Positions 42,184 to 64,000 of a DNA stretch of 64,000 bases are shown here, in pieces. Every line of letters begins with the position of its first letter. Position 1 is the first letter of the stretch. The notes under the pieces were generated by a model. That model was not told the DNA's origin and made no database searches. It saw only the letters and a list, made by a program, of their open reading frames with translations. This DNA comes from Haloplasma contractile (GTDB taxonomy: Bacteria > Bacillota_I > Bacilli_A > Haloplasmatales > Haloplasmataceae): positions 1 to 64,000 of the forward strand of contig JAENYC010000017.1 of assembly GCA_016841945.1 (NCBI GenBank), in the 5' to 3' direction. A program made the translations under genes and the position numbers.

Positions 42184-42226
42184 TAAAAAAATCATTGAGA
42201 CAAAACTTGTCCCAATGATTTTTTTA
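42184..42226 (-). terminator. Intrinsic terminator of the spoVA operon
   Basis: AAAAAATCATTGGGACAAG, short loop, TTGTCTCAATGATTTTTTT on the minus strand: a long stem after spoVAF. Confidence 0.9.
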
Positions 42227-43678: not shown

Positions 43679-43689
43679 AACTCCTTTCT

Positions 43690-45041: not shown

Positions 45042-45053
45042 CTCCCCGCCCCC

Positions 45054-45491: not shown

Positions 45492-45552
45492 ATAATGCCT
45501 CCTAGATTTAATCTATTTATAATATTTGTCAAATACTAAAATTTATGAAAAT

Positions 45553-45595
45553 AAAACCATCTTTTGTCTTATTATATCGACAAAGATGGTTTTTA
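45553..45595 (-). terminator. Second terminator between sigF and spoVAC
   Basis: AAAACCATCTTTGTC, ten-base loop, GACAAAAGATGGTTTT on the minus strand. It follows the terminator at 45621, so the spoIIA transcript is doubly insulated from spoVAC. Confidence 0.8.
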
Positions 45596-45620
45596 ATTGG
45601 TATATTATTATTTCAACATA

Positions 45621-45646
45621 AAAAAACGTCTAAATAGACGTTATCT
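45621..45646 (-). terminator. First terminator after sigF
   Basis: AACGTCTATTTAGACGTTTTTTT on the minus strand, overlapping the sigF stop codon. Confidence 0.85.
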
Positions 45647-46309: not shown

Positions 46310-46751
46310 ACTTCTCTTTTGTATAATCAAGATTTTTTTTGATTTTAATAATGGTTCCCTCTCCCATTTTAGAATGAATATGAAATTCATCAGAGAAGAT
46401 TTCCATTATCGTAAGACCCATGCCAGATCGTTCCTCTTCTGGTTTTGAAGTATAAAATAATTCTTTTGCTCGATTTAAATCCTCTATACCTTTACCATAG
46501 TCAACTACCGTGATTGTGACTTCATTGTGATAACTTTCTAAAGTCAGTTTGATTTTACCGCCCCTGTTTTCATATCCATGTATAATACAATTGGTCACTG
46601 CTTCAGATACAATTGTTTTTAGTTCATTTAATTGATCAATCGTTGGGTCTAAGGGCATGATAAAACCAGCAACTATAATTCTCGCAAATGCTTCATTTTC
46701 ACTAATCGCATCGAATATAATCTCAGCATAATTATCTCTTTTTTGTTTCAA
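46302..46751 (-). CDS. spoIIAB: Anti-sigma F factor SpoIIAB
   Basis: GHKL-type serine kinase and anti-sigma factor (149 aa). The N box TIVSEAVTNCIIHGYENR (about residues 46-63), G1 box VVDYGKGIEDL and G2 box EERSGMGLTIMEIF are intact. It phosphorylates SpoIIAA and sequesters sigma F. The start is TTG, right after the spoIIAA stop and a GGGGGTGG site. Confidence 0.95.
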   Translation of the reverse strand: MKQKRDNYAEIIFDAISENEAFARIIVAGFIMPLDPTIDQLNELKTIVSEAVTNCIIHGYENRGGKIKLTLESYHNEVTITVVDYGKGIEDLNRAKELFYTSKPEEERSGMGLTIMEIFSDEFHIHSKMGEGTIIKIKKNLDYTKEKYA

Positions 46752-47102
46752 TTAGGCCACCCCCAAATAATTTGAAGCTTGTTCTTCATCTTTAGTAATG
46801 ACTAAGATCTTATATAAACCTGATACTTTAATAATCTTTTCTATCATAGAATTTAACTCACATACGATTAAAATTCCTTTATTTCTTTTCACTTGATTAT
46901 ATCTACCTAGTATGACACCTATCCCACTACTATCCATAAAACTTAAATTTTTAAAATTAAAAATCATGTTTCTTATTTCATATTTATCCATTAAAGAATT
47001 GATTCGCTCACGTAATTGAAATGATGTATGATGATCAAGTTCACCTGACAACCTGACAAACAGTGTATCAGCTTTAATAAATAAATGAACTGATAACGGC
47101 AT
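46752..47102 (-). CDS. spoIIAA: Anti-anti-sigma factor SpoIIAA
   Basis: STAS-domain protein (116 aa) that frees sigma F when unphosphorylated. The phosphorylation site is in FMDSSGIGVILGRY. With the ATG start at 47102 (six bases after AAGGGGTG; the longest frame begins with GTG three codons earlier) the serine is Ser58, the number known from B. subtilis. It opens the operon. In Bacillus dacF precedes it; here a lysine operon lies between. Confidence 0.95.
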   Translation of the reverse strand: MPLSVHLFIKADTLFVRLSGELDHHTSFQLRERINSLMDKYEIRNMIFNFKNLSFMDSSGIGVILGRYNQVKRNKGILIVCELNSMIEKIIKVSGLYKILVITKDEEQASNYLGVA

Positions 47103-47268
47103 ATTTTTCACCCCTTAAACAATTACTAAATCAAATTTAACATATTTTATTTTTACAATATACCAATTCGACATTAATAGATAAATAAAGAAACACTATT
47201 TTGTCTTTATTCAATAAGATATTATGTAAAAAAGAGTAGAATACTGTTGAAATTTAGATAAAAACAAT

Positions 47269-47299
47269 AAAAAAAAGTGATATAAATAATCACTTTTAT
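47269..47299 (-). terminator. Intrinsic terminator of the lysine operon
   Basis: AAAAGTGATTATTTATATCACTTTTTTTT on the minus strand, 26 bases after the aminotransferase stop. The 167 bases between it and spoIIAA should hold the spoIIA promoter (sigma H expected); a GAAT exists near 47165 but no convincing -35 was found. Confidence 0.85.
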
Positions 47300-47324
47300 T
47301 TAAATAATCTTAATAGTATGAATA

Positions 47325-48512
47325 TTATTTTATTAATTCAAGGCTATTTTCAAACTTTTCTAAAAACTCATCTATTTCTTTATAAGATATTGTAAGTGGA
47401 GGTAATAATCTAACAATGGTTTTTGCTGTTACATTTAATAAGAGTGATTGATTTAAAGCAAGTTCTTTTATTTGATTTGCATAACATCCTGTATCAATGC
47501 CAATCATTAAACCTCTACCACGTATATTATTTATAATTGATGGAAACTTTTCTTTCAATAAATTTATTTTATCGATGATGTAGTTTCCTTTTGCTTTAAT
47601 ATCCTGTTTAAACTCATCTTTCGTAATGGTTTTTAAAATCACTTCACCAACAGATGCAGCCAACGGATTTCCTCCAAAGGTAGTCCCATGCTCTCCTTTA
47701 TTAAAAATGTTTTCTAACTTTTCACTCACTAACATCGCACCAATTGGTAAACCACCACCAAGTGATTTTGCGATTGTTACAACGTCTGGTTTTAAATGAA
47801 GATGTTCAAAGGCAAATAAATCTCCCGTTCGACATAGCCCTGTTTGAATTTCATCGATGATAATAAGAAAATCATGAATCTTAGATAATCTTACAACTTC
47901 ATTGACATAGTCTTGTGATAATTCAATGACACCACCTTCACCTTGTATGATTTCAAGGAAAATGGCACAGGTTTTATGAGATACATTGTTTTGTAAGTCT
48001 TTTATATCATTAAAATTAACATGCTTTGTTCCAGGAAGCATTGGCATAAACATTTTTTTATATTTATCTTGACCTGTTAAGGACAACCCTCCAAAGGTTC
48101 TTCCATGAAAGGAATTGTTTAATGCGATGACTTCTATCTTATCATGATCGGTTTCTTTTCCATACTTTCTAGCTGCTTTTAATGCTGCCTCATTTGCCTC
48201 AGTTCCAGAATTACAAAAGAATACTTTAGAGGCAAAACTATTGTCGACCAATAATTTCGCTAAATTAACAACAGATGGTGCTGCAAAATAATTCGATAGA
48301 TGAATGAAGTGTTCCATTTGTTTCGTTATGGCTTCTTTTATCTTATCATGATGGTGACCAAAAGCATTGACTGCAATACCACTAAACATATCTAAATATT
48401 TATTTCCATTTACATCATATAGGTAAGAACCTTCTGCTTTTTCTATTTCTAAACTCATACGATTGTAGATATTTAAAAGATATTTTTGATCGTTTAATAG
48501 TAAATCACTCAT
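47325..48512 (-). CDS. Class III aminotransferase, probably N-acetyl-LL-2,6-diaminopimelate aminotransferase
   Basis: PLP enzyme of the ArgD/acetylornithine aminotransferase type (395 aa). [12 protein letters not shown] near residue 45, [20 protein letters not shown] (about 93-112), [16 protein letters not shown] and the PLP lysine in [18 protein letters not shown] are intact. ArgD-type enzymes act on acetylated ornithine or succinyl/acetyl-diaminopimelate. No arginine gene is nearby; it is last of a lysine operon and starts within the dapH stop, so the acetyl-DAP aminotransferase step is inferred. In B. subtilis that step is done by an unrelated class I enzyme (PatA). Confidence 0.82.
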
Positions 48513-49216
48513 CTTAAATCATCTAAAATCTGTGTTTTATTTCCTGTTTTTTCATCCTTTTGTTTTATCACTTTAGCTGGTGTCCCAGCAACAACCGTAT
48601 TACTTTCTACATCTCTTGTCACAACACTACCTGCTGCAACAACAGCTCCTTTGCCAATTCTCACTCCTTCTAAGATAACCGCATTGGCTCCGATTAACAC
48701 ATCATCTTCAATAATAACTGGTGTTTTGCTTGGGGGTTCTAATACACCTGCAACAACAGCTCCTGCTCCTATATGACAATTTTTACCAATTGTACCCCGT
48801 GCACCAACAACAGCGTTCATATCAATCATGGTTTTATCACCAATTTCTGCACCGATATTAATGACAGCTCCCATCATCACAACGACGTTATTTCCAATAC
48901 TCACTCTATCTCGAATAATGGCACCTGGTTCTATTCTTGCTTCAATATTTTTTAAATCAAGTAAGGGAATCGCTGAATTTCTTCTGTTGTTTTCTATTTC
49001 ATAATCACAGATTACTGATAGATTGTTGTCAATAAATGTTTTGATCTCTTGATAATCACCAAAAAGAACCCAAAATTTATTTTCACCAAATATCTTGATA
49101 TTTTCAGCTTCTAAACCCTTTAAATCACCTCTTACATAAACTTTCACAGGTGTTTCTTTTTTTGCTTCTTTAATATACTTCGCAATTGCATAAGCATCGG
49201 TTAAATTTTCATTCAT
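48509..49216 (-). CDS. dapH: Tetrahydrodipicolinate N-acetyltransferase
   Basis: Left-handed beta-helix acyltransferase (235 aa) with hexapeptide repeats from about residue 85 ([40 protein letters not shown]). The N-terminal domain and [16 protein letters not shown] are typical of DapH, the acetyl branch, not succinyl DapD. It makes N-acetyl-2-amino-6-oxopimelate from tetrahydrodipicolinate and acetyl-CoA. GGAGACGAAAGT precedes the ATG; it overlaps the aminotransferase start by four bases. Confidence 0.94.
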
Positions 49217-49229
49217 ACTTTCGTCTCCT

Positions 49230-49967
49230 TTATTTAAATATATCGTCCATTGTATAAAACCCCGCTGATTGCTTCACTAAAAACTTTCCAGCTTTAATTG
49301 CGCCATGGGCGAATATTTCTTTTGATAATGCTGTGTGTTTCAGTTCAATGATTTCATCTTTCCCTGAAAATAAAACACTGTGTTCACCTACAATCGATCC
49401 CCCACGTATTGCATGAACACCAATCTCTTTCTTGTCTCTTTTGTGTGTTCCGCCTCTTCCATAAATCAATTCATATTCATCATTTTCATTGATTGTGTTA
49501 GCTAGTGTCAAAGCAGTCCCACTTGGGGCATCAATTTTTTTATTATGATGTTTTTCAATGATTTCAATATCAAATTCACTTAAGGTATCATGATATTGCC
49601 TTAAGATTCGATTTAAAATGTTAATTCCAAGTGACATATTAGAAGATAACATGATGGGAATTTCTTTGGCTTTTTGTTTAATCAATGCAATTTGTTCCTT
49701 AGAATAACCTGTTGTAGCAATCACCACAGGCAATTTTTTTTCTACAGCATAAGCTAATAATTGTTTAAGATAACTAGGATGAGAAAAATCAATGATGAGG
49801 TCACCTGGTTCTTTGATCTTAAATGGGTCCGAATAAACGGGATAATAAGTGGCTTGAACTTCTTTGTCAACACCAGCAATAATATGAAAGTCCATATCAA
49901 ATTCTAATAACTTGCTTAATACTTGACCCATTTTACCATTGGCACCGTATAATATGATATTTACCAT
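49230..49967 (-). CDS. dapB: 4-hydroxy-tetrahydrodipicolinate reductase (canonical copy)
   Basis: DapB of normal length (245 aa). NAD(P) loop [11 protein letters not shown] (residues 8-18) and substrate motif [16 protein letters not shown] with both His residues and the catalytic Lys. [13 protein letters not shown] in the C-terminal domain is also family-typical. Its ATG overlaps the dapA stop. Compare the divergent second copy at 15545. Confidence 0.95.
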
Positions 49968-50842
49968 TTTAAACCGTATTCCTTCATCATATTGATTAAA
50001 ACTTGTTTATTATTATCATTCATCTCAACAAGTGGTAATCGATAATGACCCACATTCATTCCTAGTAAGTTCATCGCTTCCTTTATTGGGATAGGATTAG
50101 TTTCTATAAACAATGCATTAATTAAATCTAGCATTTTTAGTTGAGATATTCTTGCTTTTTCTATATCTCCATTTAAATAATCATAAACCATATCATGTGT
50201 TTCTTTTGGTAGAATATTGGCGACGACTGAAATAACACCGTTTCCACCTAATGATAAAACAGGCATCACTTGGTCATCGTTACCTGAGTAAATATAAAAA
50301 TCATCATTACAAAGATTCCTTATTTTAGCGACTTGACTGATATCACCACTTGCTTCTTTTACAGCACAGATATTTTTATTTTTTGATAATTCTTTTACTG
50401 TTTCTGCTTGTATATTTAAACCTGTTCTACTTGGTACATTATACATGATGATAGGGATATTTACATGAGCGGCAATTTCTCGATAGTGATGAATGAGTCC
50501 TTTTTGTGTGGTCTTATTATAATAAGGTGTCACAATTAATAATCCATTAGCACCAACATTTTCAGCATGTTGACTCATTTCTATGGTTTTTTGTGTTACA
50601 TTACTACCCGTTCCTGCAATAACGGGAATACGATGATTCACTTGCTTCACAGTAAAAGCTATCACTTCTTTTTTTTCTTCTTTCGATAAGGTTGCTGATT
50701 CTCCCGTTGTCCCACAAACCACAATGGCATCTGTTTGTTTTTCAATATGCCACTCTATTAACTCAGCTAGTTTCTCATAATCAACTGCATTGTTCTTAAA
50801 AGGCGTAATGATTGCTACGCCAGAACCAGTAAATAATCTCAT
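49961..50842 (-). CDS. dapA: 4-hydroxy-tetrahydrodipicolinate synthase
   Basis: TIM-barrel Schiff-base aldolase condensing pyruvate and aspartate semialdehyde (293 aa). [16 protein letters not shown] (about residues 41-56), the tyrosine in MYNVPSRTG (about 130-138) and the Schiff-base lysine in CAVKEASGD (about residue 158) are present. The first ATG of the frame has no spacing to AAGGA; the ATG three codons later (MRLFTGSG) was chosen. Confidence 0.95.
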
Positions 50843-50847
50843 AAATA

Positions 50848-51828
50848 TCATTCCTTTATTAAAATTTCAGCGATTTGCACAGCATTCGTCGCTGCACCTT
50901 TTCTGATATTGTCAGATACGACAAACAAATTTAAACCATTTTCTAAGCTAAAGTCTCGTCTGATTCTACCAACATAAACTTCATCTTTTCCTTCTGCGAT
51001 AATCGGCATCGGATACACATTATTTTTCACATCATCATATAACATAATACCCTCTTTATCTTTAAATAAAAGGAATATTTCTTTTAAATCAAATGGTTTA
51101 TACAACTCAACATTGATAGAGACACAATGGCCATATTTAACAGGTACTCTCACTGTCGTCGCGGTTATTTTTAAATTGGCGTCGTGTAAAATCTTTTTTG
51201 TTTCCTCAATCATCTTGACTTCTTCTTTTGTATAACCATTATCATCAAAGGCATCGATATGTGGTAGACAGTTCCCCTGTATAGGATAAGGGTATTTATC
51301 AGTCTTATTATCTTTTAAATCATTTAAACCAGCCATCCCAGAACCACTCACAGCTTGATAAGTGGAATAGACAATTCTTTTAATTCCATAATTATCGTGC
51401 AATATTTTTAATGGAAGCACACATTGAATCGTACTACAATTAGGGTTTGCGATTATTCCATGATGAGAAAAAACATCTTTTGGATTAACCTCCGGTACAA
51501 CAAGAGGGACCTCTTCTTCCATACGCCAAGCACTGCTATTATCAATCACAATCACACCATTTTCTTTTGCGATTGGAGCATATGTTTGACTAGTCTCTCC
51601 ACCTGCAGAAAACAAGGCAATATCAATTTTTCGATTTTTAAAGGAATCCTTCGTCAGTTCTTCTACTGTATACACTTGATTATTATAATTAATTTTTTTT
51701 CCTGATGATTTACACGATGCAAACAAGAATAACTGTTTAATAGGAAACTCACGTTCATTTAAAACTTTAAGAAATGTTGAACCAACGAGTCCTGTAGCTC
51801 CGATGATTGCCACATTATATCGTTTCAT
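50848..51828 (-). CDS. asd: Aspartate-semialdehyde dehydrogenase
   Basis: Second step of the aspartate pathway (326 aa). NADP loop [16 protein letters not shown] (about residues 7-22), the catalytic cysteine in [16 protein letters not shown] (about residue 122) and the [10 protein letters not shown] segment. The longest frame adds nine residues without its own ribosome site; GGAAGGTGG before MKRYNVAI decides the start. Overlaps the dapF end by 14 bases. Confidence 0.95.
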
Positions 51829-52627
51829 TTTTACCACCTTCCCGATAATATCCACAACAAATAAATTCAGAAGGACCTAGTAAATAGACATTTTGATTTA
51901 TTTGTTCAATGGTTAATTTGCCACCAGAGACAAAGACATTGACTTTATTATCTGTATGATTCACCATTTTACTAATGACCGCTACGGCAGATGAACCCGT
52001 TCCACAACTCTTTGTAAAACCAACCCCTCGTTCATACGTTATGACCTTTAAGGTCGATTCATTCACAACCTCACAAAAATTGACATTAATTCGATTAGGA
52101 AACATCTCATGTTGTTCAATGAGGGGTGCGTATTTAGAAAGGGGATAATCATCTAATGATTCAAGAAAAATAACCCCATGTAATGTTCCCATTGTAAGGA
52201 CTGACATTTTTAATACTTGATCAAGGACCGTTATTTCTTGATTGACTGAGATAACAGAAGGATGACCCATATTGATTTTTACCTCTTCAATATCATGGTC
52301 ATTCTTAATCAGTTCTACTTTCATCAATCCCGCTAAAGTAGAAATGATAAATTTATCATCCTTCACTAATTCATGCTGATATAAATATTTCGCAAAACAT
52401 CGTATGCCATTTCCACACATTGGTGCAATGGTTCCGTCCGCATTATAAAAATCCATATATAAATTTTGATCTTTTTCCTTTACAATCATCAATCCATCAG
52501 CACCAACGCCATAATGACGATCACAAATTGATATCGCTAGTTGATTAGGATAAGTTATGTTACAATCAAGTCCATTAATGATAATAAAATCATTCCCTGT
52601 TCCTTGATACTTTTCAAAATAAAGCAT
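51815..52627 (-). CDS. dapF: Diaminopimelate epimerase
   Basis: PLP-independent racemase turning LL-DAP into meso-DAP (270 aa). The two catalytic cysteines are in APMCGNGIRCFAKYL (about residue 72) and FTKSCGTGSSAVAVI (about 214), and the start YFEKYQGTGNDFIIING is typical. The longer frame adds 15 residues; AAAGGAG six bases before MLYFEKYQ decides the start. Confidence 0.95.
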   Translation of the reverse strand: MLYFEKYQGTGNDFIIINGLDCNITYPNQLAISICDRHYGVGADGLMIVKEKDQNLYMDFYNADGTIAPMCGNGIRCFAKYLYQHELVKDDKFIISTLAGLMKVELIKNDHDIEEVKINMGHPSVISVNQEITVLDQVLKMSVLTMGTLHGVIFLESLDDYPLSKYAPLIEQHEMFPNRINVNFCEVVNESTLKVITYERGVGFTKSCGTGSSAVAVISKMVNHTDNKVNVFVSGGKLTIEQINQNVYLLGPSEFICCGYYREGGKNETI

Positions 52628-52643
52628 AGTCTTCTCCTTTATT

Positions 52644-53843
52644 TTATAAATTAAAATAACTTGCAATCGCATGGACTGCTTTTTGTTTATAATCTTTATT
52701 AATAGTGTATGAAATACTGATTTCAGATGTGGTTACCTGTTTAAAAACAATATCATTTTCCGCAAATATCTCAAAGATATTTGCCGCTATTCCAGATTGG
52801 GAACGCATTCCTAGACCAACAACTGATAATTTAATGATATCCTCATCCTTTAAACAATCAATTCCCTTAAATTCCTCTTTAATATCATCGATTATTTCAT
52901 CAATAATTGTAATATCTTCTTTAGACGTGGTAAAGGAAATATTCACATATCCTGATACTGGTGATGTCTGACTAATCATATCGACATTCACACTAGCACT
53001 GGCTAACCTCATAAAAATATGAGCTATATTTTTAGATGAATAAGGTACATGATTGAGGGTAATCATTAAAACATTTTCATTAATTGATAATCCTGTCACA
53101 CTGCGTTTTTCCACTTGTAAACCACTCTCCTTAATATATGAACCATCAATAGCTTCTAAACTACTGGCAACATAAATTGGCACATGATATAAATGACCAA
53201 TCTCAACAGCCCTTGCTTCCATCACTTTACTTCCTAAACTTGCCATTTCTTCCATTTCTTCATAACTGATCACAGACAATTTTCTAGCGTCCTTATATAA
53301 TCTTGGGTCAACACTATATATTCCTGAAACGTCCGTATATATTTCACACGTACAGCCTAGTTTAGCCGCTAAAGCAACGGCAGTTGTATCAGAACCACCT
53401 CGGCCCAATGTAGTAATATCACCTAAATCATTTAATCCTTGAAAGCCTGCGACAACAACTACCTTACCCTTTTCTAAATGGCCCTTAATTTTCCGACAAT
53501 CAATATCCGCTATTTTATTTTTGGTATGGATACCTTCTGTTTTAATTCCTGCTTGGAATCCAGTTAAAGCAATGGCTTCACAACCTTTTTCATTAAGAAT
53601 CATCGCAAAAAGTGAAATAGAAACTTGTTCACCAGTAGACATTAATAAATCCATTTCTCTTTTAGAAGGATTGTGACTTACTTTTTTAGCGGTTTCAATT
53701 AATGAGTTAGTGGTTTTTCCCATAGCAGAAACTACAACCACAATCTTCTGATGTACTTTTCTACGGTCTATAATTTTATCAGCGATTTTCTGCATTTTTT
53801 CAATGGTTTCAACTGAAGAACCACCATATTTTAAAACAACCAC
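52644..53843 (-). CDS. lysC: Aspartokinase
   Basis: First enzyme of the aspartate family pathway (399 aa). KYGGSSV (residues 5-11, ATP/aspartate), TTLGRGGSDTTAVALAAKLG (about residues 145-164) and EIYTDVSGIYSVDPR, followed by two ACT domains (from about 250 and 330) that bind the feedback amino acid. The start is GTG behind AGGA. As it is inside a lysine-riboswitch operon, lysine sensitivity is expected. Confidence 0.94.
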   Translation of the reverse strand: MVVLKYGGSSVETIEKMQKIADKIIDRRKVHQKIVVVVSAMGKTTNSLIETAKKVSHNPSKREMDLLMSTGEQVSISLFAMILNEKGCEAIALTGFQAGIKTEGIHTKNKIADIDCRKIKGHLEKGKVVVVAGFQGLNDLGDITTLGRGGSDTTAVALAAKLGCTCEIYTDVSGIYSVDPRLYKDARKLSVISYEEMEEMASLGSKVMEARAVEIGHLYHVPIYVASSLEAIDGSYIKESGLQVEKRSVTGLSINENVLMITLNHVPYSSKNIAHIFMRLASASVNVDMISQTSPVSGYVNISFTTSKEDITIIDEIIDDIKEEFKGIDCLKDEDIIKLSVVGLGMRSQSGIAANIFEIFAENDIVFKQVTTSEISISYTINKDYKQKAVHAIASYFNL

Positions 53844-53854
53844 TTTACCATCCT

Positions 53855-55153
53855 CTATTCTATATTATTTCTTAATAAATCTGTATAAGTTTCTCGTTTC
53901 ACTACAACGCGAGAAGAACCATCTTTCACAAAAATAACTGCCGGTCTTGTCATAAGATTATAATTAGATGACATGCTGTAGTGATAAGCGCCCGTTGAGA
54001 AGACAGCTAGTATATCTTTAGGATTGGGTTTAGGTAGTTTAGCTGTTTTCACTAATATATCACCCGATTCACAGCATTTACCTGTCACAGTATAATTTTC
54101 TTCTATTTCATCATTCATACGATTAGCAAGTACTGCTTCATAGTCAGCATCATATAATGCTGTACGGATATGATCTGCCATACTGCCATCCACAAAAACG
54201 TAATGCTTGCCGCCATAGGTTTTTTTTGTGCTTCCTACCTTATAAAGGGTTGTCCCACTATTGGCCACTATCGCTCTACCTGGTTCAATTAAAATTTTCG
54301 GTATCGGTATATTTAAACCGCTCGCATCATTTTCTACCTTTTCAAGTAATTCTTTTAAAAATATATTTATATCAAATGGTGTATCACCATCAACATAATA
54401 AATGCCAAAACCTCCACCTAGATTTAATTCATCGATACAAACATTAACATTTTGTTTTACTGTTTTGATATAGGTCATCATAATCCCTAACTGACGATAA
54501 AATGATTCTCTTTCAAATATTTGTGAACCAATATGACTATGAAGACCACGGAAATTTAAAAATTCATGATCATCTATCCATTTTATTAATTCAAATGTGG
54601 CTTCAGAAAATATACTTTCACCAAATTTAGAATCATTTTTTGTTGTACTAATATATTCATGGGTATGGGCTTCAATACCTGGATTGACCCTTAATAACAC
54701 ATTTATATGTTTATGATGCTTTTCACATATTTCACTTAAAAGATGCGCTTCATATTGATTATCAAGAACAATCGTTCCTATGTCATGTTTAACTGCCATA
54801 TGTAACTCTTCTTCTGTTTTATTATTGCCATGGAAATAAATCCTTTCAACAGGAAAATGTGCTTTTAAAGCTGTATATAATTCTCCTCCAGATACAACAT
54901 CTAAAGATAATCCTTCTTCATTAATCAACTTACACATCGCTAGATTTAAAAATGCCTTTGATGCATAAATGACTTCAGTATCCACTTTGTCACTTATAAA
55001 ACTTTCCTTAAATAAACGGCATTGATTTCTAATATGTGCCTCGTCCATGACATATAGTGGTGTTTGATATTTTTTAACTAACTCCATCGTACAACAGCCA
55101 CCTATTTCTAAATGTCCTTTTTCATTAATTATTGTTGTGCCAAATAATTTCAT
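53855..55153 (-). CDS. lysA: Diaminopimelate decarboxylase
   Basis: PLP enzyme making L-lysine from meso-DAP (432 aa). The PLP lysine is in VIYASKAFLNLAM (about residue 67), GGELYTALKA and the HSHIGSQIFE motif follow, and the CCESGDILVKTAKLPKP segment near residue 345 carries the conserved Cys and Glu. It is the first gene of an eight-gene operon under the lysine riboswitch. Confidence 0.95.
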   Translation of the reverse strand: MKLFGTTIINEKGHLEIGGCCTMELVKKYQTPLYVMDEAHIRNQCRLFKESFISDKVDTEVIYASKAFLNLAMCKLINEEGLSLDVVSGGELYTALKAHFPVERIYFHGNNKTEEELHMAVKHDIGTIVLDNQYEAHLLSEICEKHHKHINVLLRVNPGIEAHTHEYISTTKNDSKFGESIFSEATFELIKWIDDHEFLNFRGLHSHIGSQIFERESFYRQLGIMMTYIKTVKQNVNVCIDELNLGGGFGIYYVDGDTPFDINIFLKELLEKVENDASGLNIPIPKILIEPGRAIVANSGTTLYKVGSTKKTYGGKHYVFVDGSMADHIRTALYDADYEAVLANRMNDEIEENYTVTGKCCESGDILVKTAKLPKPNPKDILAVFSTGAYHYSMSSNYNLMTRPAVIFVKDGSSRVVVKRETYTDLLRNNIE

Positions 55154-55206: not shown

Positions 55207-55228
55207 AAAAAAATCCCTTTGCCCCAAT

Positions 55229-55374
55229 AAAATAAAGCGCCTCATTAATAAATCGGGCAATTTATTAACGACAGTACTAAGTTTATTCAACTTAGTCCCA
55301 ATACCACAAAAGTATTTCGGCAGTTGTCCCTTTCCCAAAAGGTACTCTTGACATACCGCAGCCTCTTTATTTTA
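55229..55374 (-). promoter_or_regulatory. Lysine riboswitch (L box)
   Basis: Minus-strand elements in order: AATAAAGAGGCTGCGG, AAGAGTACC, GGGAAAGGGACAACTGCCGAAA, the TTGGGACTAAGTTG...ACTTAGTACTGTCG arm, ATTGCCC and the closing GCGCTTTATT, which pairs with AATAAAG.GGC (P1). This is the L-box consensus order. A TTGACT -35 lies at 55433-55438, with a weak extended -10 (TACTGT) 17 bases on. Confidence 0.92.
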
Positions 55375-55565
55375 CTGTATAAAATGAGTATTAAATTTTT
55401 TATATAAACACAGTAACATAATTCTATATTAAAGTCAATTGTTTTTTTTATATATAAAATTACAAAATAAATGAATAAAAAACATAAAAAATAGACAAAA
55501 AAACCTTAAAAAATAAAAAAAATGCATGATTTAACAATTTTTAATGAAAAAATGATATCTTTTTG

Positions 55566-56169: not shown

Positions 56170-56690
56170 TTATCTAAAAAACATTGATTTTATCGTACGT
56201 CCTAACACTTCAAAATAAGATGCTTTTTCAACATCTTGTTCTACTGTGAGGGGAACAGTATAAATGACTTTACCATCTTTTAGAATTTCTAACTCCCCTA
56301 TTTGTTCTCCTACTTTTACACCATTTTTACCAATATTAAAATTAAATCTTTCTTCTAAACCTTTAATTTCTTCACCTTTTTGCGTGACAAAATAAACAGG
56401 GTCATTTGTCACTATCTTAATTCTTTGTGGTGTTAATAAAATATTTTGATATTCATCAACTTGATAATTTTTACTCTTATATTCAACAGCTTCATATTGA
56501 CTAAATCCATAGTTTAATAATTTCACAGTATCATAGCTTCTTTGACTTGGTGTTGTCTCTCCCATAATAACACTAATAAGTCGCATATTATTTTTTTTCA
56601 TCGTTGCCGTCAAATTATAACCCGATTCAGATGTCCGACCCGTTTTTAACCCATCAATACCAGGAACGTGCTTAACAAGCTTATTGGTAT
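56170..56690 (-). pseudogene. dacF: 3' half of dacF (D-alanyl-D-alanine carboxypeptidase), cut at an element border
   Basis: The last 173 or so codons of a DacF-type carboxypeptidase. Homology begins abruptly at TNKLVKHVPGIDGLKTGRTS (KTG box present) and continues through SGYNLTATMKKNNMRLISVI to a normal C terminus (YFEVLGRTIKSMFFR). The signal peptide and the SxxK and SxN motifs are missing: upstream of 56690 the frame turns into unrelated AT-rich sequence. In Bacillus dacF stands before spoIIAA and is read in the forespore. The cut is 700 bases from a serine recombinase gene, so an inserted element is the simplest cause. It could be a decayed remnant or a gene rejoined by excision. Confidence 0.85.
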
Positions 56691-56873
56691 GTATAAAAAC
56701 CGCCAATATAAAAATTATCAACTTTTAAATTTTATCATCAATAAATTAAATCGAATTTTTCTTCAATTTACTCATAAAACTATAAAATATTCTGAATTTT
56801 TACTAGATATATGATAGAATAAAAGGTATAGTGTCGTTTTTTTATATCTTAATTTATTATAGGGGGATTTTTC

Positions 56874-57353
56874 ATGAGTAAGAAATTTTTAATTTTTATG
56901 ATATTTTCTTTACTTTTTTTAAGTGGATGCCATACAAATGGTGAGAATAATGATTATACAAATAGTTATACTGAGGACAGTCAATCTGTGCCTAATACTA
57001 ACTCTCCAACTACTCAAAATTTAAGTTTAAGTAATTATAATCAATACTTAAGTTTTAAAATTAACAAATACACAAGTAATATAAGTGTTAATGTAGTTAG
57101 CAAATCAGGGAACTTTGTTGTTGATAATGTCACATATTCAATACGTTTTAATATTGACATAGTATATAAACGAAATGGTTATTCAAATACAAAAAATAAA
57201 AGTTTTTACTTCTCTCATTCTGGTTCTGGTTTGGGTTCTGAAACAATAGATATGTTTACAATATTTATGAATCATAGACCCGATCAAAATTATTATGTAG
57301 AATCTTATAATATCGATTATACAATAAGCAGTGTATCTGGCATTGTTAAGTAA
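56874..57353 (+). CDS. Hypothetical lipoprotein (element-borne)
   Basis: A 159-residue protein with a lipoprotein signal, KFLIFMIFSLLFLSGC (lipobox LSGC, Cys19), followed by a Ser/Thr/Asn-rich linker (to about residue 50) and a beta-rich domain of roughly 100 residues with many Tyr and Ser. I do not know the family. AGGGGG lies eight bases before the ATG. It is the first gene inside the putative element next to the dacF cut and is convergent with the recombinase. Confidence 0.65.
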   Translation: MSKKFLIFMIFSLLFLSGCHTNGENNDYTNSYTEDSQSVPNTNSPTTQNLSLSNYNQYLSFKINKYTSNISVNVVSKSGNFVVDNVTYSIRFNIDIVYKRNGYSNTKNKSFYFSHSGSGLGSETIDMFTIFMNHRPDQNYYVESYNIDYTISSVSGIVK

Positions 57354-57378
57354 ATAATTGAATTTAATACCTTTTCCT

Positions 57379-57416
57379 AAAAATAAAGTGATTTTAAATA
57401 TCACTTTATTTTTTAA
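57379..57416. terminator. Bidirectional terminator between lipoprotein and recombinase genes
   Basis: AAAATAAAGTGAT, loop, ATCACTTTATTTT: a palindrome with T runs both ways, touching the recombinase stop codon. Confidence 0.85.
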
Positions 57417-58843
57417 TTATTATTAAATTTAATATCTAATTGATATTTACCATTTTTATTTAGAACAATCAATTCTTTAATAAACTTTCTAACAAATTCT
57501 TTCTTTTTTACATTTGGTAATATATCCCAAACGGGTTTGATATTTAATATTATGTCATTAATTTGCTTAATTTCTTCTATACTTAACTTATCATTATTTA
57601 ATTTATTTTCTAATGTAGCTATTTTTTTGTCATTATCTTTTATACTTTCCTCAATATCTTTGATAATTTCTTTATAATCATCTGTCGATAAGACCTCATT
57701 TAATAAAAGTTTTTGTGCTTTTTTCTTTTTAGAGTTTAATATATTATTTTCGTTCTTATACATATTTATTTTTTCTAAAATATCATGGTTTTCATTTGGC
57801 ATTTCAACATCAACCTTACTTAAATCTATGTCTTTTAAAATGTTGATGAATTCTCTTTCAAGTTTATTTTGTGAAACACCTGATGCATCACACATTCCTT
57901 CGTGAACTCCATAACATCTATGTTTAATATAATATTTTCCTGAACTCATGGATTTATTGGTTGATAGTCTTCTACCACAAAGACCACATACAAGCACTTC
58001 TCCAAATATTACATCTTCACTTGTATATTTTTTAGTAGCAAAGCCTTTTCTAGACTCAACTTCTTTTTGTACTTCTATAAATTTTTTTTCGTCTACTATG
58101 CTTTCATGCTTTCCATTTGTTTCAAAAAATTTGTTTTTATTATGTAATCCATATCTTATTTTTCCAATATAAGTAGAGTTATTAATAATAGATTTTATAG
58201 TCCCAGCTCTCCACTGCCCCCCTCGTTTAGTTGGTATGCTCCTTTTATTTAAATCTCTAGCAATTCTATGATAGCTCCAGCCTTTTAAATAATTATCAAA
58301 TATTTCATTTACAATTATTCTTTCACTATCATTAATATATAAACTTCCTTCTTTATAATCATAACCATAAACACCTTGAGTGTTTAAATAATTTCCCTCT
58401 CTTGCTTTTTGTTCATAACCAAAAGCTACACGTTCTGCTATTGTTTCTCTTTCCATTTCAGCAATTACTCCCAAAAATTTTAAGAACATTCTACCAGTTG
58501 CAGATGTTGTATCTATTTGTTCGGAGAATGAATTAAACTCACATCCTTCATCTTTTAAGAAATCTACTATATCAATTAAATCCTTAGTTGATCTAGTTAA
58601 TCTATCTAATTTATAAACTAAAATATTATTAATTGTTTTATTTTTTATATCATCGATCAATGTCAGTAATTGTGGCCTATCTTTTATGTTTTTACCAGAT
58701 ATACCCTCTTCTATATAAATACCATTAATGGTCCAATCCTTAATATCACAAAACTGTATTAATTTTTCTTTTTGTGCAGGTATTGAAAAACCTTCTTTAG
58801 CTTGGTCTTCAGAACTTACTCTAATATATATCCCCGTCTTCAT
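57413..58843 (-). CDS. Large serine recombinase (site-specific integrase/excisionase)
   Basis: Serine recombinase of 476 residues. The catalytic N-terminal resolvase domain has YIRVSSEDQAKEGFS (nucleophile Ser10 in RVSS), LVYKLDRLTR and the long E helix. The recombinase domain (about 165-270; GGQWRAGTIKSIINNSTYIG) and a zinc ribbon (CGLCGRRLST...HRCYGVHEGMC, about residues 287-325) follow, then a coiled-coil. This is the architecture of phage integrases such as A118 Int and of SpoIVCA, which excises skin. AGGAAGGTG precedes the ATG. Its gene ends 720 bases from the dacF cut, as expected near an attachment site. Confidence 0.93.
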   Translation of the reverse strand: MKTGIYIRVSSEDQAKEGFSIPAQKEKLIQFCDIKDWTINGIYIEEGISGKNIKDRPQLLTLIDDIKNKTINNILVYKLDRLTRSTKDLIDIVDFLKDEGCEFNSFSEQIDTTSATGRMFLKFLGVIAEMERETIAERVAFGYEQKAREGNYLNTQGVYGYDYKEGSLYINDSERIIVNEIFDNYLKGWSYHRIARDLNKRSIPTKRGGQWRAGTIKSIINNSTYIGKIRYGLHNKNKFFETNGKHESIVDEKKFIEVQKEVESRKGFATKKYTSEDVIFGEVLVCGLCGRRLSTNKSMSSGKYYIKHRCYGVHEGMCDASGVSQNKLEREFINILKDIDLSKVDVEMPNENHDILEKINMYKNENNILNSKKKKAQKLLLNEVLSTDDYKEIIKDIEESIKDNDKKIATLENKLNNDKLSIEEIKQINDIILNIKPVWDILPNVKKKEFVRKFIKELIVLNKNGKYQLDIKFNNN

Positions 58844-58885
58844 ATTTTCACCTTCCTCTTCATAATATTATATGGGTGGGTAAAT

Positions 58886-59011
58886 ATGGATATTAATAAT
58901 TTAAATAATGACTTTCTAAAGCAAATTAAGAATTGGTTATTCCAGGTATTAAAGGAATCAATTCAAAGTAGTAAAAAAAATAAGTATTTTCCTAAAATAG
59001 CAGATAAATAA
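58886..59011 (+). CDS. Small basic protein (41 aa), unknown
   Basis: Short ORF with a GGGTGGG site five bases before its ATG and a terminator that overlaps its stop codon, both arguing that it is real. The peptide is helical and basic (NDFLKQIKNWLFQVLKESIQ, then a Lys-rich tail). It lies between recombinase and repressor genes, where a recombination directionality factor would be expected, but I see no clear DNA-binding motif, so no function is claimed. Confidence 0.45.
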   Translation: MDINNLNNDFLKQIKNWLFQVLKESIQSSKKNKYFPKIADK

Positions 59012-59031
59012 ATATCTGCTGTTTTATTTAT
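58997..59031 (+). terminator. Intrinsic terminator of the 41-aa gene
   Basis: AGCAGATA, AATAAA loop, TATCTGCT, then GTTTTATTTATT on the plus strand. On the minus strand the following T run is weaker, so leftward reading toward the recombinase may pass. Confidence 0.8.
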
Positions 59032-59144
59032 TGATGATAATATTACACTTTATTGTTCCATTTCATGAAGTCTACCTCCATTCTTCTTTACGCCAAAATA
59101 TATTTATTAAAGTATAAATCGCAATAATATTAACTACTAATTGT

Positions 59145-59231
59145 ATTATATTATACACATAGTATTAAATCAATATTTTTTGATACTTTTTGTATTATTT
59201 TATTTACTTTTTATACGAAAGGTATTAATAT
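59145..59231. promoter_or_regulatory. Divergent promoters with three evenly spaced repressor operators
   Basis: Three copies of ATAC-N5-GTAT lie at 59153-59165, 59183-59195 and 59213-59225, exactly 30 bases apart. The first sits in the spacer of a leftward promoter (TTGATT at 59168-59173, 17 bases, TATAAT at 59145-59150). The third sits in the spacer of a rightward promoter (TTTACT at 59203-59208, 17 bases, TAATAT at 59226-59231) that leads to the XRE repressor gene. The second lies between them. This is the layout of a phage-type repressor switch. Confidence 0.75.
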
Positions 59232-59256
59232 AAGAATTGTTTAAGAGGTGAATTTT

Positions 59257-59565
59257 ATGATAGGAAAAAGATTAAGAGAGTTAAGAGAACAAAATAAAAA
59301 AAGCAGAGAAGAGATTGCTCAAGAATTAAACATCTCTTTAGCTGCTTATGCTCACTATGAAAATAATTTTAGACAACCGCCTATTGAAAATTTAATTAAG
59401 TTAGCGGATTATTATAATGTCTCTTTAGATTTTTTAGTTGGAAGATCAGTAAAAAAGGTCAATGATGTTTTAGATATTATAGATATTAACGGGATTAAAT
59501 TAAAAACAGGTGATATAAAAAAAATAAAAGAGATCATTGATATAATCTCAAAAAAAAGTCAATAA
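59257..59565 (+). CDS. XRE-family transcriptional repressor
   Basis: Phage-type repressor of 102 residues with a Cro/cI helix-turn-helix in residues 1-62 (IGKRLRELREQNKKSREEIA, then SLAAYAHYENNFRQPPIENL and YYNVSLDFLVGRS) and a short helical C terminus for dimerisation. The longest frame starts with the GTG that is part of the ribosome site GAGGTG, so the ATG six bases further was chosen. It should bind the three ATAC-N5-GTAT sites directly upstream and control both itself and leftward transcription toward the recombinase. Confidence 0.85.
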   Translation: MIGKRLRELREQNKKSREEIAQELNISLAAYAHYENNFRQPPIENLIKLADYYNVSLDFLVGRSVKKVNDVLDIIDINGIKLKTGDIKKIKEIIDIISKKSQ

Positions 59566-59566
59566 T

Positions 59567-59597
59567 AAAAATCGATTATAGTAATCGATTTTTTTAT
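59567..59597 (+). terminator. Intrinsic terminator after the XRE gene
   Basis: AAAATCGATTA, TAG, TAATCGATTTTTTT, directly behind the stop codon. Confidence 0.88.
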
Positions 59598-59639
59598 TTA
59601 TATAATTTATGAACTTCCCAATAGTATTTTAGTTATTTA

Positions 59640-59756
59640 GGTTGTTCCAGTAAACCGTGGCTATCTGGTTTACTTCTAGACTGAAAGATTGGTAAGATTG
59701 TCTAGAAGACCGGTCTCCTATCCCTAACACATAGGGACTCTTTGGGTCCATGCTTT
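59640..59756. ncRNA. Candidate structured RNA of unknown class
   Basis: An island markedly richer in G+C than its surroundings, without a convincing ORF, that can fold into a series of stems: AGTAAACC/GGTTTACT (59649-59656 with 59667-59674), CTAGAC-type 7-bp stem (59675-59681 with 59700-59706), self-paired GACCGGTC (59708-59715) and TCCCTA/TAGGGA (59721-59726 with 59732-59737). A GGAC/GTCC pairing (59735-59738 with 59746-59749) competes with the last. On the minus strand an extended -10 (TGGTATAAA, 59755-59763) would start an RNA near GGACCC. Neither strand has a clear T run, so orientation is open. It matches no riboswitch class I know. Confidence 0.5.
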
Positions 59757-59886
59757 TATACCACATCACATTTACTATATCATTTAATTTTAAAAAAATA
59801 AAATAAGTAAGTAAGTGAATATTAAAACATTGAAATAATGTATATATAATAGTATAATGGAGTTATATTAATTTAGGAGGGAAATG

Positions 59887-60279
59887 ATGAAAAAGTGTTA
59901 TAAATGTGGTGTTCAGGATAGTCAATATTTATCTGAAGAAAAGTTTATTGAGATTGACGGTAATGATTATTGTCCATATTGTGCAAATAAAATCAGTAAT
60001 AATAATCAATTGGATGAAGAGAAAAAAAATATTAAAAATATAGAGGTTATAGATTCTATGAATTGTAGTTCTCAAAATAATAAGAATCAAATAGCTGAAA
60101 TTATAAGAATAATAGGATTCGTTATAATTGGGATAGGACTACTTGTATTTTTGATATTAATTTCATCTAGTTTTTTAATAGGACTTACATATTTTATTGG
60201 TTCTTTTATATCTGGAATTATATTGATTGGATTTGGTGAAATTATTTCTTTATTACATAAGATTTTCTATAAATTATAA
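59887..60279 (+). CDS. Zinc-ribbon membrane protein, unknown
   Basis: A 130-residue protein: an N-terminal zinc ribbon with two CxxC pairs (CYKCG at about residue 3 and CPYCANK at about 32), a hydrophilic linker rich in Asn and Lys, and two hydrophobic segments (IIGFVIIGIGLLVFLILISS and a second ending near residue 120). It should sit in the membrane with the ribbon in the cytoplasm. The family is common in small Firmicute proteins, but the role is unknown. Of two adjacent ATGs the second is six bases from AGGAGG and was chosen. Confidence 0.6.
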   Translation: MKKCYKCGVQDSQYLSEEKFIEIDGNDYCPYCANKISNNNQLDEEKKNIKNIEVIDSMNCSSQNNKNQIAEIIRIIGFVIIGIGLLVFLILISSSFLIGLTYFIGSFISGIILIGFGEIISLLHKIFYKL

Positions 60280-60557
60280 CAATTTTTATCATACAACTTT
60301 TGAAAAAATCTTCTCGCTAGAATAGGTAGTAGACCAAATTTTTTTGACTAGTTCAAGCAAAGCACTATGTTTCTAATAATTATTTTATCAGTAATATGCT
60401 AAATCGTTGCGAGTTTTAACTATAATAGAAATAAATAATCTATGAACCATCGTAATCTAACCTGAAATAATTTTCGTTTTCATCTCGAAGTGCAGATGAT
60501 TATATAAATTAACATCTATAGTTAAACTAATATATAAGCATTCAAATAAAACTATAA
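60280..60557. other. Intergenic stretch before the insertion sequence
   Basis: I see no gene, promoter or structured element here beyond the 5' arm of the interrupted terminator (from 60537). Only very short ORFs without ribosome sites occur in either strand. Confidence 0.5.
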
Positions 60558-60566
60558 CAATTTGAA
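60558..60566. repeat. Target-site duplication, left copy
   Basis: CAATTTGAA, repeated at 62313-62321. In the uninterrupted target it belonged to the 3' arm of a terminator hairpin. Confidence 0.85.
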
Positions 60567-62312
60567 GAGGTCACTGAAAAAGTACATTGATTTTCCATTA
60601 TAATTCTAAAATAAAAGAATCGTATTCAAATACATGATTTGAATCGATTCTTTTTTATCTTTATAATAATTTTAAAGGTTTTAAGGGTATTATTCTCCTA
60701 TTAATGTCAATATTCTTTTTATATTTACTGTAAATATTGATACTGCTGCTTGTATTCGCATACCAAAAAGACCACTGTATGTACAATCTTTATAACCGTG
60801 ATTATTTTTAAGTTCTGCATTCTTAGCTTCGATCATATAACGTTCCTTAGCTAATTCTTTATATTCATCTTTTTCCATGTTAATTATATGTTCTTGGTGT
60901 ATAGTATCTTTTTTTATAGTTCTACAATACGATTTAGATTTTTGTTTTGGTTTTATCTTGCATTTATCCAAATTACAACATGTTTTACATTTATCAATGT
61001 CAAAGAAATGGATCTCTCTTAATGGTGCTCCATTGTTTTTATTTGCCTTTTTACCATTTAAGACTAATTTATAAGCCAAATGACCTTCTGGACACACCAT
61101 TCTTTCAGCATCTTTATTATAGAAAAATCCTTCACATGATTTAGAATTACCTTCTGTTACTGTACTACTTAATTGTGATACTAGCTTCAATTTCTTTTCC
61201 TTAGAGTATAAAATGTTATCTCTTTCTGAATACGACTTATCGCCTATAAAAGCTTCTATTTTTATTCCATTCTCTTCTGTTTTTTCTACTAACTTCTGTA
61301 ATTCCTTTCCATCATGCTTTTCTCCAGTGGTTACAGTAGCTGCAGTTATGATTCTCTCTGGTGTCATCGCAATATGTGTTTTATATCCAAAGAAATTCGT
61401 GTCAGCAGTTTTGTGACCAATTTTCGCATCTTTTTCCTTTATAGAGTTTAGGTGTTCTACATCATCTTCAACAATCTCTTTTAGAAAATTAACTTTAGTC
61501 TTAACTGAGTCATATATCATTAATGAATCATCATCAGAAATTAAGTTAATTAATTCATTACAATATTTAATTTGATCTTCTAATAGACCTGTATTCTCTC
61601 TTTTTTTGGGCATTTTATTTTTATATGATGCGTTCACTTTATACACTGACTGACGTAGTTTCTTAGATTCTTCAATTAATATCTCTCTTGGTGATTTATT
61701 ATGATATCTACTGTTAGTATGAGTAGAATCAGCTATGATTCTATTGGTTAAATTAATACCGTTTTGAATAGCTATTTCAACCGTCTTAGAAATTAAGAAA
61801 TCTAATATACCTTCATCTGTTAATCTTTTCTTTCTAAAAACAGTTAGACTAGATGAATCAATAATTTGATCTTCAGGAGCTAGGTCTAAAAAATACTTAA
61901 AGGCCATATCAGACATGGCTCTTTCTACTAAATCAGCATCAGATAATTCATATAAACACTTCAAAATTAAATATTTAAACATCTTTTGAGGTTTATATCC
62001 TGGTCTTCCGTTTGTATGACAATATTTATCACTTAGAATGTCGTCTACAAATGAAAAATCAACTACCTCTTTTATCTTTCTAAGAATATGATTTTTAGGT
62101 ACCACTAAATCATAAATTTCTATATACGGACTGAGTATCAATTTATCGCCTTGAATCATAAATAATCACCTTATACCTTTAATATTATAATATAATTATA
62201 TCACATTTTGATGTTTATTACATCAAATTTCGTGTTGATAGACAATAAAAAAGATACTAATATTTCGATTAATATTAGTATCAATTTATTAAGGGACTTT
62301 TTCAGTGACCTC
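60567..62312 (-). mobile_element. IS1182-family insertion sequence
   Basis: A complete element of 1746 bp. Perfect 17-bp terminal inverted repeats, GAGGTCACTGAAAAAGT at 60567-60583 and its complement at 62296-62312, enclose one transposase gene. The 9-bp sequence CAATTTGAA flanks both ends (60558-60566 and 62313-62321) as a target duplication. Inside the right end a hairpin (GATACTAATAT...ATATTAGTATC, about 62254-62281) may block transcription entering from outside, and a second one (about 60612-60657) may end the transposase message. The intact repeats, duplication and transposase point to recent arrival. Confidence 0.93.
60690..62159 (-). CDS. IS1182-family transposase
   Basis: DDE transposase of 489 residues. 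The N-terminal DUF772 domain (YCHTNGRPGYKPQKMFKYLI, ELSDADLVERAMSDMAFKYF) is followed by the catalytic core: IADSTHTNSRYHN with the first Asp, KTADTNFFGYKTHIA and FIGDKSYSERDNI with the second, and the Glu in ERYMIEAKNAELKNNHGYKD. A Cys-rich insertion (CKTCCNLDKCK) lies before the last. Full length, no stops: likely active. Confidence 0.93.
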   Translation of the reverse strand: MIQGDKLILSPYIEIYDLVVPKNHILRKIKEVVDFSFVDDILSDKYCHTNGRPGYKPQKMFKYLILKCLYELSDADLVERAMSDMAFKYFLDLAPEDQIIDSSSLTVFRKKRLTDEGILDFLISKTVEIAIQNGINLTNRIIADSTHTNSRYHNKSPREILIEESKKLRQSVYKVNASYKNKMPKKRENTGLLEDQIKYCNELINLISDDDSLMIYDSVKTKVNFLKEIVEDDVEHLNSIKEKDAKIGHKTADTNFFGYKTHIAMTPERIITAATVTTGEKHDGKELQKLVEKTEENGIKIEAFIGDKSYSERDNILYSKEKKLKLVSQLSSTVTEGNSKSCEGFFYNKDAERMVCPEGHLAYKLVLNGKKANKNNGAPLREIHFFDIDKCKTCCNLDKCKIKPKQKSKSYCRTIKKDTIHQEHIINMEKDEYKELAKERYMIEAKNAELKNNHGYKDCTYSGLFGMRIQAAVSIFTVNIKRILTLIGE

Positions 62313-62475
62313 CAATTTGAATGCTTTTTTTATTTTATCAATTACATCACCTGGCAATTATTAATTACCATAAATATGTGTATTCTCTCAATCCCATTTT
62401 CAGTTGTATGTGACTGATTTTAAATTTTTTATAAATAAACTTCATATTTATTAATGTTCTATAATTAAACACTTT
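62313..62475. other. Gap holding the 3' arm of the interrupted terminator
   Basis: CAATTTGAATGCTTTTTTTATTTT at 62313-62336 is the second arm and T run of a terminator whose first arm (AAGCATTCAAAT) lies at 60537-60548 on the other side of the IS. Without the IS the two would give an 11-bp stem, a 12-base loop and seven T. No gene is seen in the rest. Confidence 0.7.
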
Positions 62476-64000
62476 TTATGAAATCTTATTTTCAGCTGCT
62501 ATTTGTTTATTTCTTTGTAATAATTTTACTTTATTAATGTTCGTATAGTTTAATTTGTTTAATAATTGCTTTAATTCCCTTTCATCAACAGAAACTATAT
62601 TTATATGATGATTAATAATTGAAATAATGAAATTTCGTACCATTTTATTATTTTCATGTTTTTTTAATAATTTGTATATATAGTCAGCGTCAAATTCATT
62701 ATAATATTCTAATTTTATAGCAAAATTAATTAATTCTAAGGAATTGCTTTTTTTATCATTCAGAATATTCTCAAAATCACCTTTCATTTTTGAGTTACCT
62801 ATAACTTTAGCTATGTGTAAAATAAGTGACTGTAGAATTTCATATGAAACTTGTTTGATTAGTTGTAAAAATTCGACTAACTCTTCAATATTCTCATTAG
62901 CTTCTTCCTCAATTTCAAACTCAATCACTTCTTCTATTAGATCTAAATAATGTTTTGCTAACCTTAAACCCAAGTTTAATGAGGCTTTTGTCACATTCAA
63001 TCTAGGTTTTAATCTTATAGAATTTCCATATGATTTTAATAATTGACCTGATACATCTAATAATTTAATACTTCTAATTATTTCTCTAACTTCTTTATTC
63101 TCAAAATTTGGCTCATAATTTTCATTATCCTGTAATCTTTCTTTAGCATCTCTATCTTTGAAGAACTCTTCCCTTTTGTGTTGTACTGTTCCCTGAAATT
63201 TTTCAAGTTTTCGTTCCTTAATTAATTCATCTTCATTAAATATTTTTATGTCCTCTGAGCATTCTAACTCTTTAGTATTTAAATAAACCTTTTCTAGTTC
63301 AGAAATTAATCTGTCTGTGATTAATTTTTCATCAGATAAACTAATGAAAAACAATACGATATTAGCGTTATCTTCTAGATGAATATTATTAATTAGAATA
63401 TCAAGAATTTCCATATTTCTATATATATTACTTGCAAAATATGAAGCGGTAAAGTAATAATATATAAATTTATATGTAAATTTATAAAAAATACCTTCTT
63501 TTGTAAACATATTGTTCTCATTTAAATAAATTAGCATCTTTTTAGAATCATTCTCTAGTTTTGACCGAGTATAACCATATTCTTCTATTAACATTTCATG
63601 AAATTCAGTATATACTTCTTCAGATAATCTTTTTAATCCATTTTTATATAAAAAATATGCAAGTTCAGATAAATAAGTTTGAATAAAATCTGCATCTATT
63701 TTACATTCATTGGTAATTTTAAGCAAAGCTGTATTAACAAGGTATTTATAGAAATGTGCTTTTGCACCATAAATAAGTTCATTACTTTCTTGTTCGTCAC
63801 ATGCTTTTAAAAAAATTAATATGAACCTTGGAGATGCTGGTACAAGTTTATTATTAAGTAATTGATTTAATTTCTCTAAAATATAATAATTTTTTCTAAA
63901 AATCTCAGCTTCATTATCCTGGTTCTTACAAGAAGTCCATTTCTCGATTAATTTATACTTTTGTTGATTGTTAAACGGAAGAATTGATAAATTTACAAAC
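62476..64000 (-). CDS. C-terminal part of a probable STAND/NACHT-type NTPase (partial)
   Basis: The frame is open from the right edge of the window to 62476 (about 507 residues seen); the TTG at 63726 is an internal codon, not a start. The visible part begins ILPFNNQQKYKLIEKWTS, then LVPASPRFILIFLKA, and has EGIFYKFTYKFIYYYFTASY near its middle. This F-x-H/Y-x-x-F-x-E/Y-x-F-x-A pattern following a winged-helix region is typical of NACHT and related STAND NTPases, which in bacteria are often anti-phage sensors. The remainder is helical (HEAT/TPR-like) and lacks known repeats. The NTPase core would lie beyond 64000. Confidence 0.55.
   Translation of the reverse strand, partial: FVNLSILPFNNQQKYKLIEKWTSCKNQDNEAEIFRKNYYILEKLNQLLNNKLVPASPRFILIFLKACDEQESNELIYGAKAHFYKYLVNTALLKITNECKIDADFIQTYLSELAYFLYKNGLKRLSEEVYTEFHEMLIEEYGYTRSKLENDSKKMLIYLNENNMFTKEGIFYKFTYKFIYYYFTASYFASNIYRNMEILDILINNIHLEDNANIVLFFISLSDEKLITDRLISELEKVYLNTKELECSEDIKIFNEDELIKERKLEKFQGTVQHKREEFFKDRDAKERLQDNENYEPNFENKEVREIIRSIKLLDVSGQLLKSYGNSIRLKPRLNVTKASLNLGLRLAKHYLDLIEEVIEFEIEEEANENIEELVEFLQLIKQVSYEILQSLILHIAKVIGNSKMKGDFENILNDKKSNSLELINFAIKLEYYNEFDADYIYKLLKKHENNKMVRNFIISIINHHINIVSVDERELKQLLNKLNYTNINKVKLLQRNKQIAAENKIS

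Follow-up and report, generated by a model that had tools for sequence, protein, structure and literature searches.

Many mobile elements restore the genes that they target, and the known elements that intervene in sporulation genes sit almost always in genes of the mother cell, since it is the spore that retains the element after the death of the mother cell. Such elements have been described for sigK, spsM, spoVFB, gerE and yabG (PMC10747680), and the known ones lie nearly always in mother-cell genes (PMC6957869). The gene considered here, dacF, is expressed in the forespore in C. difficile, where it depends on sigma-G (PMC3738446, PMC3789822) and is unaffected by sigE and sigK (PMC3738446). 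Receiver-less Spo0A proteins, which also bear on this locus, are known from gut phages (PMC10294663). We analysed a 64,000-nucleotide stretch of the draft genome of Haloplasma contractile (3.43 Mb in 73 contigs), positions 1-64000 of contig C10, which we call the window. In this genome dacF is split by an element carrying a serine recombinase, and the locus is probably a case of reversible, site-specific integration of a mobile element at dacF. No earlier report of an element intervening in dacF was found in the literature searched (subscription journals lay outside its coverage).

A profile search of the genome placed Peptidase_S11 in four locations: DacB (C10:39985, adjoining spmA/spmB, with dacB-spmA-spmB intact), an intact DacA-like gene on contig C33, and two parts of dacF. 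The 3' part, on the minus strand of the window (56170..56690), comprises the codons from NTNK on, is entered at TNKLVKHVPGIDGLKTG and contains the KTG box, with matches to PF00768 (profile positions 189-238) and PF07943 (PBP5_C). A preliminary description of the window had remarked that dacF homology breaks abruptly near 56688, and it does end at TTATTGGTAT (56681-56690, plus strand). The same description had expected a 5' half to the right of 64000, in the same orientation and with signal peptide, SxxK and SxN. That half exists and its orientation matches, but it lies on contig C53 (C53:17387-18051, minus strand; PF00768 match at C53:17368-17952, profile positions 9-201) and not on C10, which ends at 72159. 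All three features are kept (SxxK as PASMTK, SxN as SAN); homology ends after WLVNTNKLV, and the frame reaches a stop 16 codons past the core without a KTG box. Since this box is missing, the 5' fragment should be inactive as a carboxypeptidase for as long as the element is integrated. When the two parts were joined in silico at the core (junction WLVNTNKLVKHVPG), an open frame of 391 amino acids resulted, collinear with the DacF of 16 relatives. The G000 assembly (H. contractile) holds no full-length dacF elsewhere and, by genome search, no second dacF 3' end; the two parts are its only dacF pieces. The split of dacF by the element is thus real, as the preliminary description had proposed.

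Neither half contains a stop or a frameshift. In a comparison with the sister species (G001), in which dS is near-saturated and power is limited, both halves are under purifying selection, with a pN/pS of ~0.14 like their neighbours; a recent insertion would give an equal signal of constraint. The residue after KTG is R in H. contractile and aromatic in 16/16 aligned relatives, which may hint at lost or impaired function. Past dacF, contig C53 carries pdp, as in relatives with an intact gene. Between dacF and spoIIA, H. contractile has a lysine/DAP operon (window 42224-55153), while spoIIA follows closely after dacF in the relatives G004 and G006. This part of the window also contains a lysine riboswitch (55227-55375) upstream of lysA and, further away, a SAM riboswitch (37026-37131) upstream of a methionine-type ABC transporter operon.

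The short direct repeat that had been anticipated at the junctions is a 10-bp core, ATACCAATAA on the coding strand, found at the border of element and dacF 3' part (window 56681..56690, minus strand) and again at C53:17387-17396; it is the longest exact repeat common to both junctions. Next to it lies the element half of a putative attP (window 56691..56726, minus strand), whose GGCGGTTTTTATACATAC arm pairs with GTATTCATAAAAACTACC on C53. Assembled from both element halves, attP has its dyad centre in the core and matches at 18/24 dyad positions (shuffle P=0.001); when the true half was replaced by random C53 sequence, 0.07% of trials (0.0007) scored as well. The element occupies 56691..64000 of the window, runs on along C10 to 72159 and, past a contig gap, covers C53:1-17386, where it meets the dacF 5' part. 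C10:56691-72159 and C53:1-17386, 32.9 kb plus the gap, very probably form a single element, at least 32.9 kb long, because of the attP symmetry, a LlaJI-like system split over the gap and repeats shared by both sides. Two LlaJI-type 5mC methyltransferases at the end of C10 converge over the gap with a LlaJI-type endonuclease and its McrB-like partner at the start of C53. The shared repeats include one of 464 bp at 94% identity (L012 11050-11507 and L010 6630-7089) as well as shorter copies. The G+C content of the element parts is 26% and 24%, versus 30-31% in the host. The gap was closed neither by end overlap nor by a DNA search of the contig ends, which carry just short dispersed repeats; with the right end of C10 facing the left end of C53, the two dacF halves have the same orientation.

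The neighbours of the 3' part are those described earlier: a lipoprotein, a large serine recombinase, an XRE regulator, a DDE transposase and a defence gene. The recombinase (57413..58843, minus strand; 476 amino acids, TP901-1/A118 type) lies 0.7 kb from the dacF 3' junction. It combines Resolvase and Recombinase domains with a Zn-ribbon match just under the cut-off, has the catalytic-serine motif RVSSEDQ, matches the integrase group phrog_95 and the TP901-1 integrase 3bvp, and is the predicted integrase of the element. The locus presents three features of a skin-type arrangement: a split sporulation gene with exact rebuild, a serine recombinase near att, and a direct repeat with inverted-repeat arms. 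Upstream of the recombinase, at a distance of 21 bp, a family-specific SigE model derived from spoIVA picked out a candidate SigE-type promoter, TTAATATC-N14-CATATAATAT (58856..58900, minus strand), spaced like the spoIVA promoters of the family. Its P value is 0.003 per random region and about 0.03 allowing for the ten region-model pairs tried, and 2 of ~171 other genes score as high on the model, a false-positive rate of about 1-2%; the site weakly suggests that the recombinase may be under a SigE-like promoter. Consensus SigK, SigG and SigF sites upstream of the element genes were at or near chance. A divergent 40-amino-acid ORF without a PHROG match (58889..59011, plus strand) is a candidate for a recombination directionality factor (RDF) or accessory protein; no RDF stood out in the element, and no skr-like ORF overlaps the recombinase start. 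Searching a genome contig collection with the recombinase returned one distant recombinase only, and a search of viral contigs, with the recombinase and with Spo0A_C as queries, returned either no hits or distant loci that lack dacF. The other large serine recombinases whose flanks were read (on C61, C60 and C32 of G000, and two in G001) lie outside recognisable sporulation genes. At least five large serine recombinase genes are clustered on the 25-kb contig C45 (L101, C45:1-20000, and on to 22.4 kb).

The rest of the element is cargo of mixed kinds. In the window it includes a small lipoprotein-like gene of 159 amino acids with a lipobox-like start and no Pfam family (56874..57353, plus strand), an XRE-type regulator (59260..59565, plus strand; HTH_3, phage repressor-type PHROGs), the DDE transposase of a nested IS (60690..62159, minus strand; DUF772 and DDE_Tnp_1), and the 3' part of a gene for a 1022-amino-acid metallophosphatase-NACHT protein (62476..64000, minus strand; PF00149 and NACHT), whose 5' part lies past the window on C10. 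This last protein resembles the DS-8 anti-phage system (DS8_antiphage, 563 bits versus a cut-off of 790). The 3' side of the XRE gene (59620-59770) is a structured-looking non-coding stretch with inverted repeats that matches no Rfam family. The LlaJI restriction-modification set is complete, with two 5mC methyltransferases, McrB-like R1 and LlaJI R2, one pair per contig end; a PD-T4-3-like GIY-YIG protein, membrane proteins, an unassigned 674-amino-acid P-loop membrane protein and a Rep_trans protein resembling MobT (46.5 bits versus a cut-off of 600) are also encoded. Within the 32.9 kb, no coupling or T4SS protein was recognised and no phage structural or packaging gene was convincing (one weak tape-measure-like match, 21 bits). 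As part of the reading that we favour as a whole, the element is probably ICE/IME-like or plasmid-like with defence cargo, and not a recognisable prophage. On the C53 side, ~0.7 kb from the dacF 5' junction, lies a gene for a receiver-less, 129-amino-acid protein consisting of Spo0A_C only (L010 16270-16659). Its recognition helix is largely kept and it aligns with the Spo0A effector domain structures 1lq1/1fc3; a search of the element for 0A boxes showed no enrichment near att or the integrase. A second divergent Spo0A-like protein (259 amino acids, weaker Spo0A_C match) is encoded on contig C7 (L102 979-1758), where it adjoins a triosephosphate isomerase gene.

Among relatives, dacF is uninterrupted and full-length in 7/7 other genomes of the order, downstream of pdp wherever this was read, and spoIIA/spoVA genes adjoin it in two family members; this bears out the expectation that close relatives have the undivided gene, and no relative carries the same truncated dacF without an element. 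In the sister species, intact dacF is followed by three orphan dacF 3' ends, ~90% identical to the full gene and decreasingly intact (G001:C1:1950001-1970000, L054, 7978-8211, 9333-9794 and 12980-13474). The first begins at the core, preceded by TTTTTGGCGTCTTTTGTAT, a sequence similar to the attP arm of G000, TATATTGGCGGTTTTTATAC. Two of the three tails carry a stop or frameshift, and unrelated cargo, including an RHS-like fragment, keeps them apart. The arrangement points to earlier integrations at this position, after which the gene became whole again; the tails appear to preserve, layer upon layer, the insertions into a single site. Among 296 genomes of the class, one more dacF is truncated at the same end point, in G163, a member of another family. 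Its 5' part diverges right after NTNK, and a serine recombinase 43% identical to the window recombinase follows 270 bp on; in a tree of 28 recombinases of the class the two are sisters with 100/99 support. The G163 case comprises one junction, the dacF 3' part being absent from the 1.30 Mb inspected of ~1.5 Mb, and a plasmid search with the G163 recombinase gave no match. From the G000 split, the G001 tails and the same end point in G163 beside the closest sampled relative of the integrase, dacF looks like a recurrent attB for one integrase clade.

Several other accounts of these data have to be weighed. The two junctions do lie on different contigs of a 73-contig draft and could stem from different insertions, but such an artefact is very improbable: each junction is inside a long contig, the LlaJI-like system and the shared repeats link both sides, and an attP symmetry around a common core would hardly arise by chance. 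The sister species raises another possibility, namely that the element normally supplies a dacF 3' end, so that integration leaves the gene whole, that this end was lost in H. contractile, and that G001 has the restoring form. A full dacF followed by three ~90% identical ends, one of them starting from the core behind an attP-like arm, is what this account would lead one to expect. Nevertheless, the absence of a second 3' end from G000 speaks against it, the G000 element proteins are essentially without relatives in the G001 insert region, and homologous repair explains G001 equally, so we regard it as distinctly unlikely. Somewhat less so, yet still unlikely, is plain insertional inactivation, in which dacF was killed and its loss is tolerated as DacB and the DacA-like enzyme remain. 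The intact dacB-spmA-spmB and DacA-like genes are in keeping with it, as are the 5' part that stops 16 codons past the core without KTG and the change to R after KTG, unique among the aligned dacF sequences. On the other hand, the attachment halves and the integrase look intact, and the dacF halves, in which two of the G001 tails differ, are free of stops and frameshifts and as constrained as their neighbours, to the extent that a near-saturated dS can tell.

The possibility that excision is programmed, as for skin, demands more of the element: the recombinase would be switched on in sporulation by SigE, the element's Spo0A_C protein or both, the element would leave, and dacF would be rebuilt for the spore. 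The SigE-like site with spoIVA-type spacing, the largely kept recognition helix of the receiver-less Spo0A_C protein, a broad host sporulation set (spoIIA, sigF, spoVA, spoIVA, SASP and Spo0A), the open and constrained dacF halves and the existence of comparable elements all point this way. Set against them are the forespore expression of dacF in C. difficile, when known targets are nearly all mother-cell genes; a family dacF promoter that departs from both the SigE and the SigG model and has a conserved shape of its own; the P of only ~0.03 for the SigE-like site over ten region-model pairs; the missing skr-like ORF at the recombinase start; and Spo0A_C-only genes in phages without known dacF link. 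Should dacF be transcribed in the forespore, the spore would need to retain the circle and reintegrate it, or else excision would have to precede septation or be partial. We consider sporulation-programmed excision doubtful; that a Spo0A-domain-bearing, non-phage element rebuilds dacF by such excision, a rearrangement acting on a forespore gene, is slightly more doubtful. The likelihoods that we assign to these alternatives overlap with that of the main reading, because programmed excision and plain inactivation are stronger and weaker versions of what excision does.

In the reading that we prefer, reversible site-specific integration, the conserved NTNK codons of dacF would have served as attB, and the element's own large serine integrase would have inserted it there. 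Integrase and RDF together would excise it as a circle and restore dacF exactly, so that integration would switch off, reversibly, a gene required solely for sporulation. Excision would most likely be governed by the element's own switch, the XRE regulator and the RDF, and dacF would be rebuilt in cells that lose or mobilise the element, with coupling to sporulation possible. If programmed excision were true, the element would have to solve the problem of staying with a spore whose chromosome it has left. A recurrent site in a forespore gene would either break the mother-cell rule or indicate that the silence of sporulation genes during growth is all that makes them targets, and the set of G000, G001 and G163 makes this question directly testable. 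In addition, the element by which this spore cortex gene is disrupted encodes a Spo0A DNA-binding domain.

Compared with known systems, the dacF element is like skin (sigK), SPbeta (spsM), vfbin (spoVFB), gin (gerE) and yin (yabG) in that a sporulation gene is interrupted, at a short direct repeat, by an element with a serine recombinase, the halves of the gene share one orientation, and exact excision would restore the reading frame. It has in common with gin the lack of clear phage structural genes. It differs from these elements in its target, which is a forespore gene in the species studied; in its cargo, which comprises a MobT-like protein, a Spo0A DNA-binding domain and defence genes of LlaJI-like, DS-8-like and PD-T4-3-like kinds; and in coming from a different bacterial lineage. 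Diverse related integrases using one conserved gene stretch as attB recall the site-specific large serine recombinases of Durrant et al. 2022 (PMC10083194), in whose main text no carboxypeptidase is named as a target, whereas the target here is dacF. The MobT-like protein of the Rep_trans family, the integrase and the defence cargo resemble those of ICEs and IMEs with a MobT relaxase; unlike in these, the MobT score is far under the cut-off and no coupling or T4SS protein is recognised. Finally, the element shares with phage-borne truncated spo0A (PMC10294663) a Spo0A C-terminal effector domain that lacks the receiver and is carried on a mobile element, but here the gene lies ~0.7 kb from a split sporulation gene, and no phage structural genes are recognised on the element.
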